64,000 bases of DNA, from assembly GCA_016867975.1 (NCBI GenBank), contig VGIC01000002.1, positions 1 through 64,000 of the forward strand. The letters are read 5' to 3'. The notes beneath the pieces are model-generated. The model did not search any database. It was given only the letters and a program-made list of their open reading frames with translations, and was not told the origin of the DNA. Source of the stretch: Betaproteobacteria bacterium (GTDB taxonomy: Bacteria; Pseudomonadota; Gammaproteobacteria; Burkholderiales; Methylophilaceae). Numbering within the stretch: position 1 is the stretch's first letter; the number at the start of each line of letters is the position of its first letter. Shown here in pieces: positions 101 to 24,370 of this stretch. The position numbers and the translations under genes were made by a program.

Positions 101-385
101 TTGGTACGGCAAATAGGGAGCAGGTCAATTGATACAATTCTTCTGAAAGGCTATGCAGCAGTAATTGGTACCGGATTCTGGATTGGGACTTTGATGTTGG
201 TCAATCTTTGGCTGGTGTTGTGGCCACATCAGAAGAAAGTACTTGGCTTCGTTCCCGCAACGCTGGAGGAGCGTGTGCGCTGCGCTCGTATCACCTTCTT
301 GTCCTCGCGCACGAACACCATGCTGTCCATTCCACTTTTGTTCTTTATGGCCGCCGGTTCGCATGGGGTAGCGTTGTTTGCCTGA
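101..385 (+). pseudogene. 5'-truncated PuuD-like (urate hydroxylase / urate_ox_N-like) membrane protein
   Basis: ORF starts with TTG inside the IS edge; residues NLWLVLWPHQKKVL...SRTNTMLSIPLLFFMAAGSH match the C-terminal pattern of the PuuD/urate_ox_N family. The N-terminal membrane part is missing. Confidence 0.6.
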
Positions 386-1478
386 AACGTCTGAGAAGGT
401 ATTCAACTTCGCCGCCGGCCCCGGCGTCATGCCGCATGAGGTGCTCCGGCAAGCCAAGCAGGAGTTTCTTGACTGGGACGGTAGTGGATTCTCCATGCTG
501 GAAACTCCGTTTACCGGAGATGCCTTCAAAAAAGTTCTACATCAGGCACGCGATGATTTGCGTGAACTACTGAACATCCCAGACAACTATCGTATTTTGT
601 TCATGCACGGCGGTGCCTCAGCACAGTTCTCACTAGTGCCGCTCAATCTACTTGGTTCTGCGAGATCAGTTGATCACATCGATACGGGCTACTGGTCGTC
701 CAAGAGTCTACGAGAAGCGCGCCGTTACTGCAAAGTTCACGTTGCGGCTAGCAGTGCAGATAGCCAGTACGATCACATGCCGGAAAATTGGAAACTAAGC
801 CCGGAATCCGCCTATTGCCACTTCACTAGCAACGAAACTGCCAACGGCGTGCAGTTCCACCAGATTCCTGAAACTGGGGGCGTGCCATTGGTGGTGGACA
901 TGACCTCGGATTTCCTAAGTCGCCCGCTCGATGTGTCACGCTATGGACTGATCTACGCAAGCGCGCAGAAGAACGTTGGGCCGGCTGGCGTGACGGTCGT
1001 CATCGTACGAGATGATCTGCTTGGGAAAGCTCATCCGGCCACGCCCACTGTATTCAACTATGCCGCACAGGCAGAAGCAGACTCCATGCTGCAAACACCA
1101 GTCACATTCTCAGTTTATCTGGCCGGTTTAGTGTTTCGCTGGCTACGCCAACAGGGCGGTATAGCCACAATGGAGCAGAACAGCTTGCGGCGCAGCTCCA
1201 GTCTTTATCAGGTGATAGATGATAGCAATGGCTTTTATTGTTGCCCAATACAACATGGTCATCGTTCACACATGAACATCTGCTTTAGTACGACCAATGA
1301 TACCCTAGCCCCAGTATTTCTGTCTGAAGCAACTTCAGAAGGTCTTATGTACCTCAAAGGTCATCCCGTGATGGGAGGTATGCGTGCCAGCTTGTATAAC
1401 GCCATGCCAGATACTGGAGTCATGGCGCTAATTGAATTCATGCGGAGCTTCGCAGAAGCGCATCGCTATGATATATAA
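378..1478 (+). CDS. SerC-like (phosphoserine aminotransferase family) PLP-dependent aminotransferase, divergent paralog
   Basis: NFAAGPGVMPHEVL, SAQKNVGPAG (PLP lysine) and GGMRASLYNAMP are SerC family motifs. The substrate phosphate-binding residues are changed. TTG start. Confidence 0.85.
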   Translation: MPETSEKVFNFAAGPGVMPHEVLRQAKQEFLDWDGSGFSMLETPFTGDAFKKVLHQARDDLRELLNIPDNYRILFMHGGASAQFSLVPLNLLGSARSVDHIDTGYWSSKSLREARRYCKVHVAASSADSQYDHMPENWKLSPESAYCHFTSNETANGVQFHQIPETGGVPLVVDMTSDFLSRPLDVSRYGLIYASAQKNVGPAGVTVVIVRDDLLGKAHPATPTVFNYAAQAEADSMLQTPVTFSVYLAGLVFRWLRQQGGIATMEQNSLRRSSSLYQVIDDSNGFYCCPIQHGHRSHMNICFSTTNDTLAPVFLSEATSEGLMYLKGHPVMGGMRASLYNAMPDTGVMALIEFMRSFAEAHRYDI

Positions 1479-2367
1479 GTGTTTTTCGACCATTGTCTCG
1501 AACTTCGGGGCACCTCATGTCAGAAGATTGGCAGTTAAGGCTATTCGGATAGCCGCGCTCATGACGCCTGCGGAACCACCTTCATCACTTCGTCGCGAGG
1601 TCATGGGGCTGACGTTCCCAAGCCCAGTCGGTCTTGCTGCCGGATTCGACAAGCATGGCGAGCTCTATTCATCTCTCCCACCACTGGGCTTAGGTTTCGT
1701 CGAAGTCGGTTCTGTCATCCCGCGCCCAGAACCTCAACGTAGTCAGGGAGTCGATGAAGTCGTTGCAATCCTGTCGCAAATCCCGCGGCCACATCCGATT
1801 CCCATCGGGGTCAGTATCAGCATGAACCGTAACACCCACCCAGATCAGATGGTTGATGATTATTTGGCCTGCCTCGAAAAACTCTGGAAATATGCGGACT
1901 ATTTTGCGATAAATCTCGGTGTGCGAACGGGTCCTGATTTGCATATGGAAGAACATGCCGGCACGTTGCGTAAAGTACTGACGGCTGCAAAAGCCTCACG
2001 AACTGACCTTGCCCGTATTACAGGTCTGAGGCGTCCAATGGCAGTCAAGATAGACTGCAACCGTGGTGACACGACATCGCTAGTGGCCTGTGTTCAGGAG
2101 TATGCGTTCGACAGTTTGATATTGAGTGGATATGTAGAACGTGGCAAAGAGCGCCACGCTCTTGAAGGGTTGGAGCAAGTGATAAAAAGTCTTGATGGTC
2201 AGATGCCGGTGATTTCGGTTGGGGGTATACGCACCCCGCAGGACGCCGTTGATCGGCTGTCTGCCGGAGCCACACTGATACAACTTTACAGCGGTATTGT
2301 TGAATCTGGCCCCCTTTTACCACGACGTATTAACTCACATTTGTCGAGCCAATTGGTAGGTTCATGA
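1468..2367 (+). CDS. Dihydroorotate dehydrogenase-like flavoprotein, divergent
   Basis: MGLTFPSPVGLAAGFDKHGE and VISVGGIRTPQDAVDRLSAGATLIQLYSG match class 2 PyrD. NISSPNTPGLR and the NxxGxN segment are not conserved. Start chosen at MIYKC, overlapping the upstream stop. Confidence 0.75.
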   Translation: MIYKCFSTIVSNFGAPHVRRLAVKAIRIAALMTPAEPPSSLRREVMGLTFPSPVGLAAGFDKHGELYSSLPPLGLGFVEVGSVIPRPEPQRSQGVDEVVAILSQIPRPHPIPIGVSISMNRNTHPDQMVDDYLACLEKLWKYADYFAINLGVRTGPDLHMEEHAGTLRKVLTAAKASRTDLARITGLRRPMAVKIDCNRGDTTSLVACVQEYAFDSLILSGYVERGKERHALEGLEQVIKSLDGQMPVISVGGIRTPQDAVDRLSAGATLIQLYSGIVESGPLLPRRINSHLSSQLVGS

Positions 2368-2455: not shown

Positions 2456-3370
2456 TTAGGTCCGACAACCTTGACGGGTGCCACGTCGGCGGAGCTCCCG
2501 TTCTATTCCATTAAGTACCTTCCATTTTTTAGAGCACCAGTCAGGCGCAAGCAGAACATCGCTAGCAGCAGTAGCTGTTACTCTGTGAAATATAATATGC
2601 TCTGGAGTGCGTTCAATCATATCTGCTGAAATTCTTATATAGTCATCCATGGACAAGGGGGAGTACTCACCGCGTTTCCATTGGTATGCTAACAAGGTGT
2701 TTTTTACCACATGAAGAGGATGAAGTTTGAGTCCATCGACACCAAGTTCAAGTACCTTGTCGAGCGTTGTATGACACTGTTCTTCACCTTCTCCTGGTAA
2801 TCCAATAATCAAATGGGTGCATACTGGTATACCACGCGCTCTGGCTGCCAATAAAGTTTCTTTATACTCTGAGAAACCATGCCCTCGGTTAACGCGTACA
2901 AGGGTTTCATCAAATGCAGATTGCAACCCAAGTTCCAGCCAAACTTCCCAGCCTTCATTTTGTAAGGTATCCAATAATTCAAGTACTTCAATAGGTACGC
3001 AGTCAGGTCTGGTGCCCACCGAAATTCCAATGATGTCAGGTTGTAACAAAGCTTCACGATAAAGGTTCTCTAGCAACGTTACGTCAGCATAGGTGTTTGT
3101 GTAAGCCTGAAAATATGCTAAAAAACGTTTCGCTCCGGTGCGTTTGGAAATGGCTATTTTTGCTTTGGCCATTTGACCATGTAAATCAAGATTTGAGTCA
3201 GCATCCGGGCTAAAAGACACATTATTGCAAAAGGTACAGCCACCATAACCTTTTGAGCCATCCCGGTTTGGGCAAGTGAATCCGACATCAAGTGCGATTT
3301 TATGCACGCGTTTTCGGTGTCGCTTGAGCAAGTGTTGTCCAAAAGTGTTTATTTTGTCTGAAAGTACCAT
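2456..3370 (-). CDS. yhcC: TIGR01212/YhcC-family radical SAM protein
   Basis: CPNRDGSKGYGGCTFCNN radical SAM cysteine motif and overall YhcC-like sequence (HRKRVHKIALDVGFTCPNRDG). Confidence 0.8.
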   Translation of the reverse strand: MVLSDKINTFGQHLLKRHRKRVHKIALDVGFTCPNRDGSKGYGGCTFCNNVSFSPDADSNLDLHGQMAKAKIAISKRTGAKRFLAYFQAYTNTYADVTLLENLYREALLQPDIIGISVGTRPDCVPIEVLELLDTLQNEGWEVWLELGLQSAFDETLVRVNRGHGFSEYKETLLAARARGIPVCTHLIIGLPGEGEEQCHTTLDKVLELGVDGLKLHPLHVVKNTLLAYQWKRGEYSPLSMDDYIRISADMIERTPEHIIFHRVTATAASDVLLAPDWCSKKWKVLNGIERELRRRGTRQGCRT

Positions 3371-3588: not shown

Positions 3589-4518
3589 TTATCTGCTCAA
3601 TGCATGGGTATGATTGCGCCATTCATACCCGGCAGCATGACTGTAAAATCCGTTAAAGCAAGGCACATCGCCCAATAAAGATTGGATAATCAAAGTGGCT
3701 TGTTCTCCGGTAATACGTCCATGCAATATTGAGTGGGCAGTTTCAATGATGGTGTCTGTATGTAAACTATGAGGTGATATACGAAAATTAGTAATGCCCA
3801 TCTCCATTAATTCCGGAATCTGGGGGAGAAGGTTAAGGTAACCATAAGACATGGTTTGTATGCCGTTTATACAAAGAAAACTCTGGTCTGTCAGGGTTTT
3901 TAATGGCATGCCATCAGGATCGTGTTCACAAACGTATTGACAGTTATCTTTGACTCGGCCGTACGAACGGGCGTGATAGCATCTCGCTGACAGCGCAAGG
4001 CCAACCCGTCCGGAAACCTGCACTTCAAGGCTGACGTCAAGCGTTTTGGCAGCTTTTCCCATAATATATATGGTGTTACGTGGTAGTTCCGCGGGCAGCA
4101 CTACATGATGAGCGCCATTTAAGGCCAGATATCTTAAAGTTTCCTCATTATAGACATTGCAGTATTGGCCGATTCGATGTGGTTTTTTTCGTAAATGATA
4201 GATTGCAGAGGTGTCATTTGCCTCAACCTCATATTTTTCGTCGTGACAAAGTGCCTCAGTCATTTTACGTTCACGCGGTGTCATGATTTCTGCCAGTGAG
4301 GAAAAAACTACTTTCTTACCTGCACGTGTCAGGCGATCAGTAACCTCGGCATAATAAGGCATCATAAAAGGCGATCGCTTCGAGCACACGACCTCTCCAA
4401 GGTAGACCGTATTGATAGGTGACTCATCAGCAATTTTTAAATAAAAGTCTCGCTTTGTTTCAGCAGACCAATGAAACAATATCGGTCCCAGCGTTAGATT
4501 ACCTTGTGCTGTATCCAT
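3589..4518 (-). CDS. ubiV: U32 peptidase family protein UbiV, O2-independent ubiquinone biosynthesis
   Basis: LGPILFHWSAETKRDFYLKIADESPINTVYLGEVVCSKR; Cys residues typical of the family; adjacent to ubiU/ubiT. Start chosen at MDTAQG. Confidence 0.85.
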   Translation of the reverse strand: MDTAQGNLTLGPILFHWSAETKRDFYLKIADESPINTVYLGEVVCSKRSPFMMPYYAEVTDRLTRAGKKVVFSSLAEIMTPRERKMTEALCHDEKYEVEANDTSAIYHLRKKPHRIGQYCNVYNEETLRYLALNGAHHVVLPAELPRNTIYIMGKAAKTLDVSLEVQVSGRVGLALSARCYHARSYGRVKDNCQYVCEHDPDGMPLKTLTDQSFLCINGIQTMSYGYLNLLPQIPELMEMGITNFRISPHSLHTDTIIETAHSILHGRITGEQATLIIQSLLGDVPCFNGFYSHAAGYEWRNHTHALSR

Positions 4519-4519
4519 G

Positions 4520-5533
4520 CTATCTCCAGCGTTTTGTTTCATAGGCCCCCAACGTTTGTTTGTGGCCTTCAGTCAATGATAAAAGATGGTCCATATTCAC
4601 GGATCCACCCTCCAGAACACTATCGATAGCCTTTCTCCACGAAGAGACGACACTCTGTATATAAGCTTTTGAACGCTGGCGTCCTTCTATCTTAAAGGCG
4701 TCAACCCCTGCAGCAATTAATTCGGGGAGAAGAGACGCAAGATTCAGGCTTAATGGTTCTTCAAAAGCATAGTAAGGGTCATCCCTGTGAGCGACCGTGT
4801 AACGGCCCTTGCATATGGTCGGATAACCAGGGTTCTGCGAGCAGGAGAAGCTATCTATCGTAAATCTATTGAGCTCAGTACGAAGATTTCGATTGGCATC
4901 TACTTGATAACTTACAAAGTTAGCAGGTGAGCATATGCCATCCATGTTCGTTGATAAACCTGTTGCATAATTCGTAAGGCTACAGCGACCTTCAGCCATC
5001 AACCCATGGTTCCCGAAAATAAAGCATTCGATCTCACATGGTATTTCTTGCTTCAATGATTTTATTTCTGTAATAGTTAAAATACGTGGCAGTACAACAC
5101 GTTTGACATCAAATTCTTCACAATAAAATTTAATGGCTTCAATGGATGGAGCGCCCGCCTGCACTGAAAGGTGAAGCCGCAAATCCGAATGTTTGTTTTT
5201 TGCGTAGAGCGCCACGCCTATGTCTGCAACTATGATCGCATCAGCCCCCAGGTTATAAGCCAAATCAACGGCATTAGCCCACAACGGAAACTGCCCTGCG
5301 GGAGGAAAGGTGTTAAGCGCAACAAGTACCTGAGCTTTATGCGCATGCGCATAGGCAATCGACTCTTCCAATTCGGCAGGCGTAAAATTCAGACCGGGAA
5401 AGTTGCGGGCGTTGGTGGCATTTTGAAATCCACAATAGACTGTATCTGCTCCTGAATCGACCGCTGTGCGCAAAGAGGCTGGTGTACCTGCTGGGCATAC
5501 AAGTTCTGGTTTATGTTGAGTATTGATGTTCAT
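4520..5533 (-). CDS. ubiU: U32 peptidase family protein UbiU, O2-independent ubiquinone biosynthesis
   Basis: ELVCPAGTPASLRTAVDSGADTVYCGF and FGNHGLMAEGRCSLTNYATG motifs; between ubiV and ubiT. Confidence 0.88.
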   Translation of the reverse strand: MNINTQHKPELVCPAGTPASLRTAVDSGADTVYCGFQNATNARNFPGLNFTPAELEESIAYAHAHKAQVLVALNTFPPAGQFPLWANAVDLAYNLGADAIIVADIGVALYAKNKHSDLRLHLSVQAGAPSIEAIKFYCEEFDVKRVVLPRILTITEIKSLKQEIPCEIECFIFGNHGLMAEGRCSLTNYATGLSTNMDGICSPANFVSYQVDANRNLRTELNRFTIDSFSCSQNPGYPTICKGRYTVAHRDDPYYAFEEPLSLNLASLLPELIAAGVDAFKIEGRQRSKAYIQSVVSSWRKAIDSVLEGGSVNMDHLLSLTEGHKQTLGAYETKRWR

Positions 5534-6053
5534 TAGCCATTTTTATAAGTATTGTTAAGAACAGCATGCCGATTGGTCCAAAATAGGAAGCAGCTTCACT
5601 CGCTACGCTCCCTTCTACATCGTCCAGCGCGTTACGCAAACAGACAATTGCTTCTGTATCGCCAGATATTTGTAAATCACGCGTAAAAAAAAGTGCATCT
5701 CCATCAAGGCGTCCGTCTACCATTCCAATGAGAGCAAGAAATGAACCGGAAATTGTGGCGTCAGCGTGAAATCCAGTTTTTTTACGTATTGCAAGCAGAT
5801 GAGGGGATGCTGGGTTGGGGCAAAGTATTAAGTCAAAGGATAAGTTTGTAATTTCAATGAGAAAGGTTTTATGGTGGTGCCCTGACAGCCTGTTAAACAG
5901 AGTGGGATATTTCTTCGTGATTTTTACAATTGTGCGGTCTAGAACGTAATTAATCAGCGGCAATGGTATAGGACGGGCTAATAAACCCAGAAATTCTGCC
6001 TTGTGCGCAGGATTTTTTCTGAAACGTTGAGCCCGTATTGATAACATATTCAT
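5511..6053 (-). CDS. ubiT: SCP2-domain protein UbiT
   Basis: SCP2-like region (LSFDLILCPNPASPHLLAIRKKTGFHADATISGSFLALIGMVDGRLDGDALFFTRDLQISGDTEAIVCLRNALD) immediately upstream of ubiU. Confidence 0.8.
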   Translation of the reverse strand: MNMLSIRAQRFRKNPAHKAEFLGLLARPIPLPLINYVLDRTIVKITKKYPTLFNRLSGHHHKTFLIEITNLSFDLILCPNPASPHLLAIRKKTGFHADATISGSFLALIGMVDGRLDGDALFFTRDLQISGDTEAIVCLRNALDDVEGSVASEAASYFGPIGMLFLTILIKMANEHQYST

Positions 6054-6089: not shown

Positions 6090-6103
6090 TTGATTTTGGT
6101 CAA
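6090..6103 (-). promoter_or_regulatory. FNR/Dnr-type box TTGATTTTGGTCAA upstream of ubiT
   Basis: 9/10 match to TTGAT-N4-ATCAA. On the minus strand TACAGT (6067-6062) sits at the class II -10 distance. Confidence 0.6.
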
Positions 6104-6453: not shown

Positions 6454-6467
6454 TTGATTAGAATCAA
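6454..6467 (+). promoter_or_regulatory. Perfect FNR/Dnr-type box TTGATTAGAATCAA upstream of crp-pdxST
   Basis: 10/10 match to TTGAT-N4-ATCAA. TTTAAT at 6490-6495 lies at the class II -10 distance (29.5 bp from box centre to the first -10 base). Confidence 0.7.
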
Positions 6468-6577
6468 TTGAGAAACTCTTGCTAGATGTTTTAATTTCTC
6501 GCAGATTACTTGCTGGATTCTCTACCACTAAACTAGTGTAAAAGGTGGGCGTCTGGTTTAGACGGAAAGAGCAGTTT

Positions 6578-7270
6578 ATGTCTCCTAAGATTATTTCACA
6601 AACGCTAGCGAATTTTTCTTTATTTAAAGAGCTTGGCTCAGATCAAATTGAGAAAATCGCAGAGCAGTCACGTGTGATTAACTTTCAAAAAGGACAAAGC
6701 GTTTTTAATTGTGGAGATCAAGCCATTGGCTTGTATATCTTGGTTGAAGGGCAGCTAAAGCTTGGGTTGATCTCCTCGCAGGGTACAGAAAGAATCCTCA
6801 GGATTATTTCTCCTAGTGAGAGTTTTGGTGAGGCGATTTTATATCTTGAACGTCAGTTTCCTGTTTACGCAAAAGCGATTATAGATTCGAAGGTTTTATT
6901 AGTTCCCAAAAATCTCATTTTTTCTATGCTTGATGCTAATCCTCACTACGCTCGCAAAATGCTGGCTGGCTTATCAATTAGAATGCATCAGCTAATTCAA
7001 AACATTGAAATGCTGTCGTTACAATCATCTACCCAGCGATTTATAACTTATTTGTTGCAAATCAGTGCCGAGGTCAAAGATGGGACGAAAATTAGGCTTC
7101 CTGCTAGCAAGGCAACAATTGCATCTTTATTGAATTTAAAGCCGGAAACTCTGTCCCGGATTCTCGCGAAACTACAAAAATTGGAGCTAATAGATGTGAG
7201 GGGAAGTAGCCTGACGATTATAGCTTTGAAAAAGCTCAGAAGCTATGATTTGAGTGTTTGTGAGGTATAA
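6578..7270 (+). CDS. CRP/FNR-family transcriptional regulator
   Basis: cNMP-binding-like fold ([22 protein letters not shown]) and [21 protein letters not shown] with the E-xx-SR recognition motif; lacks an N-terminal FNR cysteine cluster. Confidence 0.88.
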
Positions 7271-7272
7271 CT

Positions 7273-8193
7273 ATGCAATCAGATAAAGAAAATGATGCCG
7301 TTCGCCTAAAAGTTGGGCTTGCAGAGATGCTTAAAGGAGGCGTCATTATGGATGTCACCGATGCACGTCAAGCCGAAATTGCACAATCTGCAGGGGCTGT
7401 GGCTGTAATGGCCTTGGAACGGGTTCCAGCACAAATTCGGAGTGAAGGTGGCGTCGCGCGGATGGCTGCCCCGCAAAAAATTCGAGAAATTATGTCGGCC
7501 GTCAGCATTCCTGTAATGGCCAAATGCCGTATCGGACACTTTGCTGAAGCACAAATTTTGCAGGTTTTAGGTGTAGATTACATCGATGAATCAGAGGTGC
7601 TTACTCCTGCAGATGATGAATATCATGTGGATAAAAGTGCCTTCAGAGTGCCATTTGTTTGTGGAGCAAAAAATCTAGGGGAGGCCTTAAGGCGGATCAA
7701 TGAGGGTGCAGCGATGATTCGTACAAAAGGAGAAGCGGGAACTGGAGATATTGTGCATGCAGTAAAGCATTTGCGAAATATCCGTCGAGAGATTAGATCG
7801 TTAACACTCCTTGAAGATGCTGAGCTTTACTCCTACGCTAAGAATCTACAGGCACCCTATCATTTGGTTCATTTAGTGGCAAAATCTGGGAAGCTGCCAG
7901 TTCCAAATTTTTCTGCAGGAGGTGTTGCTACGCCTGCAGATGCTGCATTGGTCCGTCAACTTGGTGCCGAATCTGTATTTGTTGGTTCGGGTATCTTTAT
8001 GAAAGATTCAGTAACGTTCTGTTCCGAAGCCGAGGCTGAATCAAGAGCAAAAGCGATTGTGCGAGCCACAGTTTATTTTGAAGATCCTAAAATTCTCCTT
8101 GAAACTGCTGCTGAATTACTTGGCACCATGAAGGGTCTGGCTACATCACAGCTGGTTACTGGCGATTTACTTCAATATCGTGGGGCATCGTGA
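7273..8193 (+). CDS. pdxS: Pyridoxal 5'-phosphate synthase lyase subunit PdxS
   Basis: [42 protein letters not shown] and [19 protein letters not shown] are PdxS signatures. Confidence 0.97.
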
Positions 8194-8792
8194 TTTCTTC
8201 TTTATCGATAGGTGTTTTAGCGCTCCAAGGTAGTTACGACGCCCATCTGCAAAGCCTTAAAAGATTCTCCGTAAATGCCAGGTTAATTCACCATGCAGAG
8301 GACTTGGCATCCATCGATGCGTTGATTGTTCCTGGCGGAGAATCAACAACCATGTTGGAGCTTCTTAAAAAAACTGGTTACTTTTGGGAAGAGTTGCAGC
8401 AATTTGTTCATAAAAAGCCATCTTTAGGAACATGCGCTGGTGCAATATTACTGGCATCAAATGTGGAAAATCCCACTCAAGACTGTTTGGGTGCGCTCGA
8501 TATCACTGTTCAGCGAAATGCTTACGGTCGACAATTACAAAGTTCAATTCATGATGGTAGGTGCAAGTTTGATGATAGTGACATTGAACTTGTATTCATA
8601 CGTGCGCCTAAAATTGTCAGAACTGGATCTGCAGTTGAAGTGCTGGCCGAACATGATGGAAGCCCGATTTGGGTGAAGCAGGGCCAAACGATGGCAGCAA
8701 CCTTTCATCCAGAGCTAACTTCGAACGCCATCGTGTATGAAAAGTGGTTAGAAAACATTAAGCCTGATATCACTGCATTGCTGAAATTTTAG
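8190..8792 (+). CDS. pdxT: Pyridoxal 5'-phosphate synthase glutaminase subunit PdxT
   Basis: [26 protein letters not shown] and [11 protein letters not shown]; overlaps the pdxS stop. Confidence 0.95.
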
Positions 8793-21054: not shown

Positions 21055-21214
21055 TATATTTTCCCTGATTTACATGCGACCCCGCATGCGGATTCATTAA
21101 AGACTAGGGAATATGTGAAATGAAACCAAGAAAAGTAAACGCTTACCATGTTAAGTAGCGTAGCTTTTAATGACCGTCACCCCGCGGTATTCTCTAGCGC
21201 GCCTTGACATAAGG

Positions 21215-21436
21215 CTAATGTTGCGAGGCCGGTCTCCGGGCTTGTGAGGATATGGATTGCGTCTTCCCATGTTGTTCACACAGTGACATTTTGCGATCCA
21301 TTTTGCGTTTAACGCTCACTTACCGTTGCGGGGGCAGCATAGGAATTGTTGATTCTCTAAAACAGAAAATCAGCGCACCTATTTCCCAGTTTCACCTCGT
21401 TTGTGGAAAACAAACTCGGCACCTGGCAACAAGGTT
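21215..21436 (-). promoter_or_regulatory. Cobalamin riboswitch upstream of btuB
   Basis: Minus strand GGTGCCGAG...GAGGTGAAACTGGGAAATAGGTGC ... GCTGCCCCCGCAACGGTAAGTG ... AAGCCCGGAGACCGGCCT, the canonical AdoCbl riboswitch core. Confidence 0.93.
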
Positions 21437-21566
21437 GAGATTCTAACTTTTTAATGGATCTTTGCAAGGTAATTTTTCGATTTCAGAATCCATAACATCT
21501 TGTAATACTTTGAAAAGTAGATGTTACCTATTGACTATAATCATTTTTCTAAACTATAGTGACCGC

Positions 21567-23576: not shown

Positions 23577-24215
23577 ATGCAACCACTCATGAATCAATTC
23601 AAACAGGCGACAGAGTTTCTTGCGCAGCAGGACTCGGATTGGGCTTGGTTAATCGCCACTGTGGGGGAATGTTCTTTTTCAGCTAAGTCAGAACGTGAAC
23701 CATATGAGGCTTTGGCCAGAGCAGTTGCCTACCAGCAGCTTAGCACCAAAGTGGGCGATAAGTTGATCGACAAGTTGGTGAGTCGTTTTGGCCATTTTCC
23801 ACTCCCCCATGAGCTAGTGGCTGCTGACTTTGAAAGTCTACGCGCCATCGGCTTCTCAGTAAGAAAGATTGATACATTAAAAGCGATTGCATCTGGCGTG
23901 CTTAGCGGGTTGGTACCATCCCGTGAAGTGGCGAATCACATGAGTAATGAGGCCTTGATAGCGCGATTGGTGTCAATTAAAGGCATTGGGCAATGGACGG
24001 TGGAAATGATGCTTATCTTCACTCTTGGGCGCCTAGATATCCTACCGGTCGATGACTTTGGTATTCTCGCAGGCTATATGCGGCTAAAAAAGCTTGATGC
24101 CTTACCCAAGCGTAAAGAGATGATGAGAATAGCGCAAGCGTGGAGCCCTTGTCGTACTATCGCAAGCTGGTATCTTTGGCGTGTTCCAAAAGAACTTGAA
24201 TCAATAAAAAGTTAG
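23577..24215 (+). CDS. DNA-3-methyladenine glycosylase II (AlkA-like)
   Basis: HhH-GPD: IKGIGQWTVEMMLIFTLGRLDILPVDDFGI. Confidence 0.9.
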   Translation: MQPLMNQFKQATEFLAQQDSDWAWLIATVGECSFSAKSEREPYEALARAVAYQQLSTKVGDKLIDKLVSRFGHFPLPHELVAADFESLRAIGFSVRKIDTLKAIASGVLSGLVPSREVANHMSNEALIARLVSIKGIGQWTVEMMLIFTLGRLDILPVDDFGILAGYMRLKKLDALPKRKEMMRIAQAWSPCRTIASWYLWRVPKELESIKS

Positions 24216-24370
24216 TGCGCCCAATCTATTTCAGCAGCACCACACTAGGTCAATGGCGACTCATCGGCAACACGGTCAGCATTGCTTACTGCCTTATTCA
24301 TAGCACTAACGGTTGCATTGTAGCCCGTATCGTCAAGTGAGGCTAATTTCATCTTGGTTTTGCCCTTATA

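Follow-up and report, generated by a model that had tools for sequence, protein, structure and literature searches.

An FNR/DNR-type operator in a methanol-eating bacterium probably places an oxygen-independent PLP supply, made by PdxST, under Fnr/DNR control and couples it to anaerobic ubiquinone synthesis, as judged on sequence grounds. The operator stands in front of genes for O2-free vitamin B6 synthesis, beside genes for O2-free ubiquinone synthesis, in the window analysed here (the first 64,000 nucleotides of contig 2 in a Methylophilaceae assembly of 1.56 Mb). What we observe are two boxes, their in-register conservation, the operon layout, a recurrent, box-associated linkage of pdxST to ubiTUV, and the presence of pdxJ in the window genome. 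The pdxST side of the locus contains the following features:

6454–6467, + strand: FNR/DNR-type operator TTGATTAGAATCAA, an exact match centred at 6460.5, 5' of dnr-pdxS-pdxT
6490–6495, + strand: candidate −10 hexamer TTTAAT (TCTAAT in the relative G135), lacking −11A, proposed from position and conservation
6578–7270, + strand: DNR-like CRP/FNR-family regulator, 230 aa (Pfam cNMP_binding and HTH_Crp_2; PDB 3dkw)
7273–8193, + strand: pdxS, PLP synthase lyase subunit, divergent type (NF003215, 470.8 bits, cut-off 395)
8190–8792, + strand: pdxT, PLP synthase glutaminase subunit (TIGR03800, 193.3 bits, cut-off 105.55)

Gene assignments at the locus rest on curated cut-offs, the regulator subfamily excepted. 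Both PdxST subunits exceed theirs, and PdxS falls narrowly below the TIGR00343 cut-off (424 versus 438.45). The catalytic motifs of PdxS are presumably intact, judging by eye from a comparison of the translation with B. subtilis PdxS. The three genes abut or overlap as the original prediction had stated: the regulator ORF runs to 7270 and pdxS begins at 7273, and the GTG at 8190 that opens pdxT gives a 4-bp overlap with the pdxS stop. The order dnr-pdxS-pdxT is kept in G135 (locus L041), a second Methylotenera with a regulator 80% identical to that of the window; among named relatives, the locus is closest to Methylotenera sp. MLJ.18.

The box had been described as a perfect copy of TTGAT-N4-ATCAA, which it is, and there is no other exact copy in the window. 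It lies 117 bp upstream of the regulator ATG. The 524-bp intergenic region between ubiT and the regulator contains only two TTGAY-N4-RTCAA words, at 6090–6103 and 6454–6467, and a dinucleotide model predicts 0.15 exact boxes per 64 kb and 0.0009–0.0012 per intergenic region of this size. The whole genome holds 11 exact boxes in 1.56 Mb, about three times the ~3.6 expected. Because most of these are intragenic, a perfect match alone is weak evidence, and it is placement and conservation that count; we accordingly rejected the genome-wide count as functional evidence, the reversed-pattern control (1 site) also underestimating the background.

Such a scatter of perfect words, mostly inside genes, is what a chance match would belong to. 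In G135, however, the box (TTGACAAGAATCAA) sits in the identical register (−117 from the ATG), and when the two regions are aligned in register from the regulator ATG, 61 of 80 positions between −140 and −60 are identical (76%), whereas the remaining intergenic DNA shows ~25–30% identity, which is background. This conserved block of ~80 bp starts just before the main box and ends just past the proposed −10. On the ubiT side, a stretch that begins upstream of the box and reaches the ubiT ATG agrees at 67 of 74 positions, the palindrome being identical, and identity beyond it is at background; the footprint at the ubiT box is about 60 bp. In-register conservation against background-level intergenic DNA leads us to judge both boxes genuine and makes coincidence barely credible. 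The exact, conserved palindrome upstream of dnr-pdxST, of the type TTGAT/C-N4-A/GTCAA, thus confirms, at the level of sequence, the prediction of a real Fnr/DNR-family operator at 6454–6467.

Class II spacing calls for a box centre near −41.5 and a recognisable −10, in which −11A (hexamer position 2) is the most important base. The first base of TTTAAT at 6490–6495 does lie 29.5 bp from the box centre at 6460.5. This had been called exact class II geometry, which is plausible: the spacing fits, but the hexamer lacks −11A, is TCTAAT in G135, and has counterparts at 32.5 bp in homologous promoters. TTTAAT is also a weak candidate in that a score of at least 5/6 is reached at 9 of 519 positions in the intergenic region. 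Where other Methylophilaceae regulator genes have a box, the promoter's best hexamer is GACAAT or CACAAT and begins at 32.5 bp, 3 bp further away, and an alternative −10 at the same offset, TAATTT (6493–6498), is unchanged between the window and G135. A simple sigma-70 scan detected no sigma-70 promoter near the main box, and none would be expected for an activator-dependent promoter. Class II activation at the main box is likely, with a predicted transcription start near 6502 given the position of the −10.

FNR-type sites normally turn genes on without oxygen, and may also repress. CRP/FNR proteins being able to repress, and the missing −11A meaning that the start could lie elsewhere, the DNR-like protein might instead hold down its own gene and pdxST until another signal relieves it. 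We regard such a repressor site as very unlikely, since the box lies upstream of the candidate core promoter and not over it, activated promoters typically have a weak −10, and in five of the six f124 pdxS promoters aligned a good hexamer lies 28.5–30.5 bp from the box.

The name crp originally given to the regulator is wrong. Its nearest solved structure is P. aeruginosa DNR (3dkw, E 3.9e-31), ahead of FNR (3e-17), NtcA (3e-15) and CRP (6e-9 or weaker), which places it in the DNR subfamily. It lacks the N-terminal FNR cysteine cluster, having cysteines only at 45 and 228, and its recognition motif K-P-E-T-L-S-R is of the FNR type E-x-x-S-R. Self-activation had been proposed and draws support from related regulators of the family, which have a box 68–123 bp upstream in 15 of 30 loci (0.085 expected), but a true [4Fe-4S]-type Fnr with a CSNC-type cysteine cluster and the same E-x-x-S-R motif, as E-T-V-S-R, is encoded on contig 11. 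Feedback by the DNR-like protein is therefore plausible, with Fnr an equally good candidate. The boxes at these 15 loci also speak for a real operator upstream of dnr-pdxS-pdxT.

Related regulators without pdxST also tend to have the box, and the nearest pdxST genes, in family f215, have no such box. Both facts would suit a box that serves the regulator only, by DNR-type autoregulation, with pdxST either read-through passengers or transcribed from their own promoter and PLP supply not regulated by oxygen. This is nevertheless unlikely: the box of f124 and of G110 immediately precedes pdxS, without an intervening regulator gene, and in the window pdxS begins 2 bp past the regulator stop, in the order shared with G135.

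The original prediction missed the divergent operon that supplies the biological meaning of the locus, namely ubiTUV with a box of its own. The two boxes lie ~360 bp apart and serve divergent units, the second of which, with its neighbours, is made up as follows:

6090–6103, − strand: second FNR-type operator TTGACCAAAATCAA (read on −), upstream of ubiT, with TACAGT (6067–6062) at 29.5 bp; kept in G135
5511–6053, − strand: ubiT (SCP2), accessory factor of O2-independent ubiquinone synthesis (NF047962, 68.1 bits, over cut-off)
4520–5533, − strand: ubiU, O2-independent ubiquinone hydroxylation (NF047963, 447 bits, over cut-off)
3589–4542, − strand: ubiV, O2-independent ubiquinone hydroxylation (NF047965, 338.9 bits, over cut-off)
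2456–3370, − strand: mnmL/ytqA-type radical SAM protein, a constant ubiUV neighbour (TIGR01212, 367 bits)
378–1478, + strand: serC paralogue, with homologues in the G135, G110, G146 and G117 islands
1432–2367, + strand: pyrD-like (quinone-type dihydroorotate dehydrogenase) paralogue, with homologues in the same four islands

All three UbiTUV proteins thus pass their curated cut-offs at one locus. The mnmL/ytqA gene is also found beside ubiUV in G110, G048, G146, f124 and f139. The G110 copy of the serC paralogue is a phosphoserine transaminase by TIGR01364, and the G110 copy of the pyrD-like paralogue matches DHO_dh, with scores below the equivalog cut-offs.

Several Methylophilaceae have a set of genes adjoining ubiTUV that encodes a second PqqE, a small membrane protein resembling the urate oxidase N-terminal domain, and the SerC and PyrD-like paralogues (L147:8965–12697, L148:2665–6496, L146:10857–14583, L160:459–4167; window 128–2367). 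An FNR-type box lies upstream of the pqqE of this set in some genomes. A cysteine-rich DGC-domain protein (PF08859) accompanies ubiTUV or is encoded divergently from dnr (L147:5863–6294, L042:4850–5239), and in G135 its gene has an FNR-type box upstream (L042:5341). Elsewhere on the − strand, the window contains an Rfam Methylophilales-1 RNA (24210–24311) and a cobalamin riboswitch (21210–21441).

True pdxS is present in 6 of 187 Methylophilaceae genomes, all six of them among the 13 carriers of ubiTUV (p 3e-8, uncorrected for kinship). The pdxS tree indicates that pdxST was acquired at least twice in the Methylophilaceae, and groups the window pdxS with G135 and family f215, away from other Methylophilaceae pdxS. 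In G135, G110, G146 and G048 pdxST lies within ~15 kb of ubiTUV, on islands that mostly also carry pqqE, serC and pyrD paralogues. Boxes stand upstream of several island units in the family, and pdxS of G110 has its own.

Class-wide, ubiTUV adjoins pdxST in 17 of 36 loci, distributed as 8/9 in f124, 1/1 in f139, 3/3 in f215 (in one of which the contig ends with only ubiT visible) and 5/6 in the Methylophilaceae; outside these groups linkage was found in 0 of 17 loci, several of them on short contigs. Representative proteins of the linked f124, f139 and f215 loci were verified with NCBIfam. The f124 layout is mostly pdxS-pdxT-ubiT with mnmL-ubiU-ubiV opposed, and a TTGAY-N4-RTCAA box lies within 400 bp upstream of pdxS in seven of nine cases, six of the seven at −111 to −123 from the model pdxS start (0.010 expected). 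We disregarded an apparent box in G457, which overlaps the pdxS coding region at its start. In f215, where no such box was found at the pdxST clusters, nrdD and nrdG (anaerobic ribonucleotide reductase and its activase) adjoin pdxS-pdxT in all three loci (L195:5578–10240, L194:5869–10369, L222:6178–10640).

FNR-type boxes accompany 10 of the 17 linked pdxST loci but only 1 of the 19 unlinked. Genomes bearing pdxJ likewise account for 12 of 17 linked and 2 of 19 unlinked loci, or 3/4 against 1/11 by family (p 0.03); these counts are drawn from related genomes, and the p-values are indicative only. A rule that the box occurs only with pdxJ fails, as G308 and G555 have the box and no pdxJ. G308 is a complete f124 genome, so in the absence of pdxJ its PdxST must serve in air too.

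In the window genome pdxJ (G000:C7:26817–27521) coexists with pdxST, and the six Methylophilaceae genomes tested for pdxJ all have it. PdxH, the enzyme that completes the pdxJ route, reduces O2 to H2O2 (PMC8215295). Canonical PdxH (TIGR00558) is over cut-off in 0 of 187 Methylophilaceae genomes, and PF12766 was found in 0 of 12 genomes tested. A simple bypass of PdxH is rejected on these counts, and the O2-dependence of the pdxJ route in Methylophilaceae is an assumption.

We infer activation rather than repression, and with it the binding protein, the signal and the physiological reason, along the following lines. As O2 falls, or perhaps as NO appears, an Fnr/DNR dimer would bind the main box and activate a single transcript encoding the DNR-like regulator, PdxS and PdxT, and the second box would act likewise on the oppositely transcribed ubiT-ubiU-ubiV, possibly with mnmL. 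Two O2-free syntheses would thereby be switched on, that of ubiquinone via UbiTUV and that of PLP via PdxST. PdxST would make PLP from ribose-5-phosphate, glyceraldehyde-3-phosphate and glutamine, replacing the pdxJ route with its classically O2-using last oxidation. PdxST yields PLP directly, according to a 2023 survey (PMC9997740).

A broader proposition, which we consider evenly balanced, is that denitrifying or low-oxygen Pseudomonadota acquired PdxST horizontally as an anaerobic substitute, switched by Fnr/DNR, for the final, O2-using part of the pdxJ route, and that it travels together with UbiTUV, joined in one family by NrdDG, as a module for O2-independent cofactor synthesis. If true, this PdxST–UbiTUV module explains why a few bacteria hold both PLP pathways. 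To our knowledge, PLP synthesis without oxygen in bacteria with the pdxJ route is poorly explained. Genomes with both routes have so far looked like oddities, and the regulated pairing offers an answer that can be tested: of the two pathways, the second is the one for anaerobic conditions. It would extend the possible reach of Fnr/DNR regulators to vitamin B6 and make pdxST a possible genomic mark of anaerobic living in lineages that are otherwise of the pdxJ type. A literature search found no paper naming both ubiU and pdxS, and a search on pdxS, fnr, anaerobic and regulon returned none evidently concerned, by title and abstract, with a link between Fnr and pdxST. The pairing of pdxST and ubiTUV with FNR-type boxes, recurring in unrelated bacteria, seems to be previously undescribed.

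Parts of the arrangement resemble known systems. FNR sites upstream of ubiTUV are conserved across Pseudomonadota (PMC11707229), and the box at 6090–6103 is an ordinary member of this class; words beginning with Methylophil are absent from the text of that study. In E. coli UbiUV and UbiT are Fnr-activated, and the ubiUV/ubiT intergenic region has, like ours, divergent promoters for O2-independent ubiquinone genes with one Fnr box each (F1 and F2) (PMC10470549), whereas the window has the DNR-like regulator-pdxS-pdxT on one side and ubiTUV as a single operon on the other. P. aeruginosa DNR (3dkw) is the best structural relative of the regulator by sequence and shares the absence of an Fe–S cluster and the FNR-type recognition motif, but the two are only ~30% identical and H139 alone of the DNR histidines is kept, so that haem/NO sensing is not transferable from DNR. 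In Gram-positive bacteria a transcription factor gene, that of PdxR (MocR), also adjoins pdxST, but PdxR belongs to another regulator family and responds to PLP, not to O2 or NO (PMC5320631, PMC9997740). The 2023 survey, in its available text, counts both PLP routes in ten of 21,105 genomes, including Methylophaga nitratireducenticrescens and Thiohalobacter, and proposes no anaerobic role for the second (PMC9997740). The window genome shares with those genomes the coexistence of pdxJ and pdxST, and differs from them, as they are described there, in having its second route tied to ubiTUV and FNR-type boxes.
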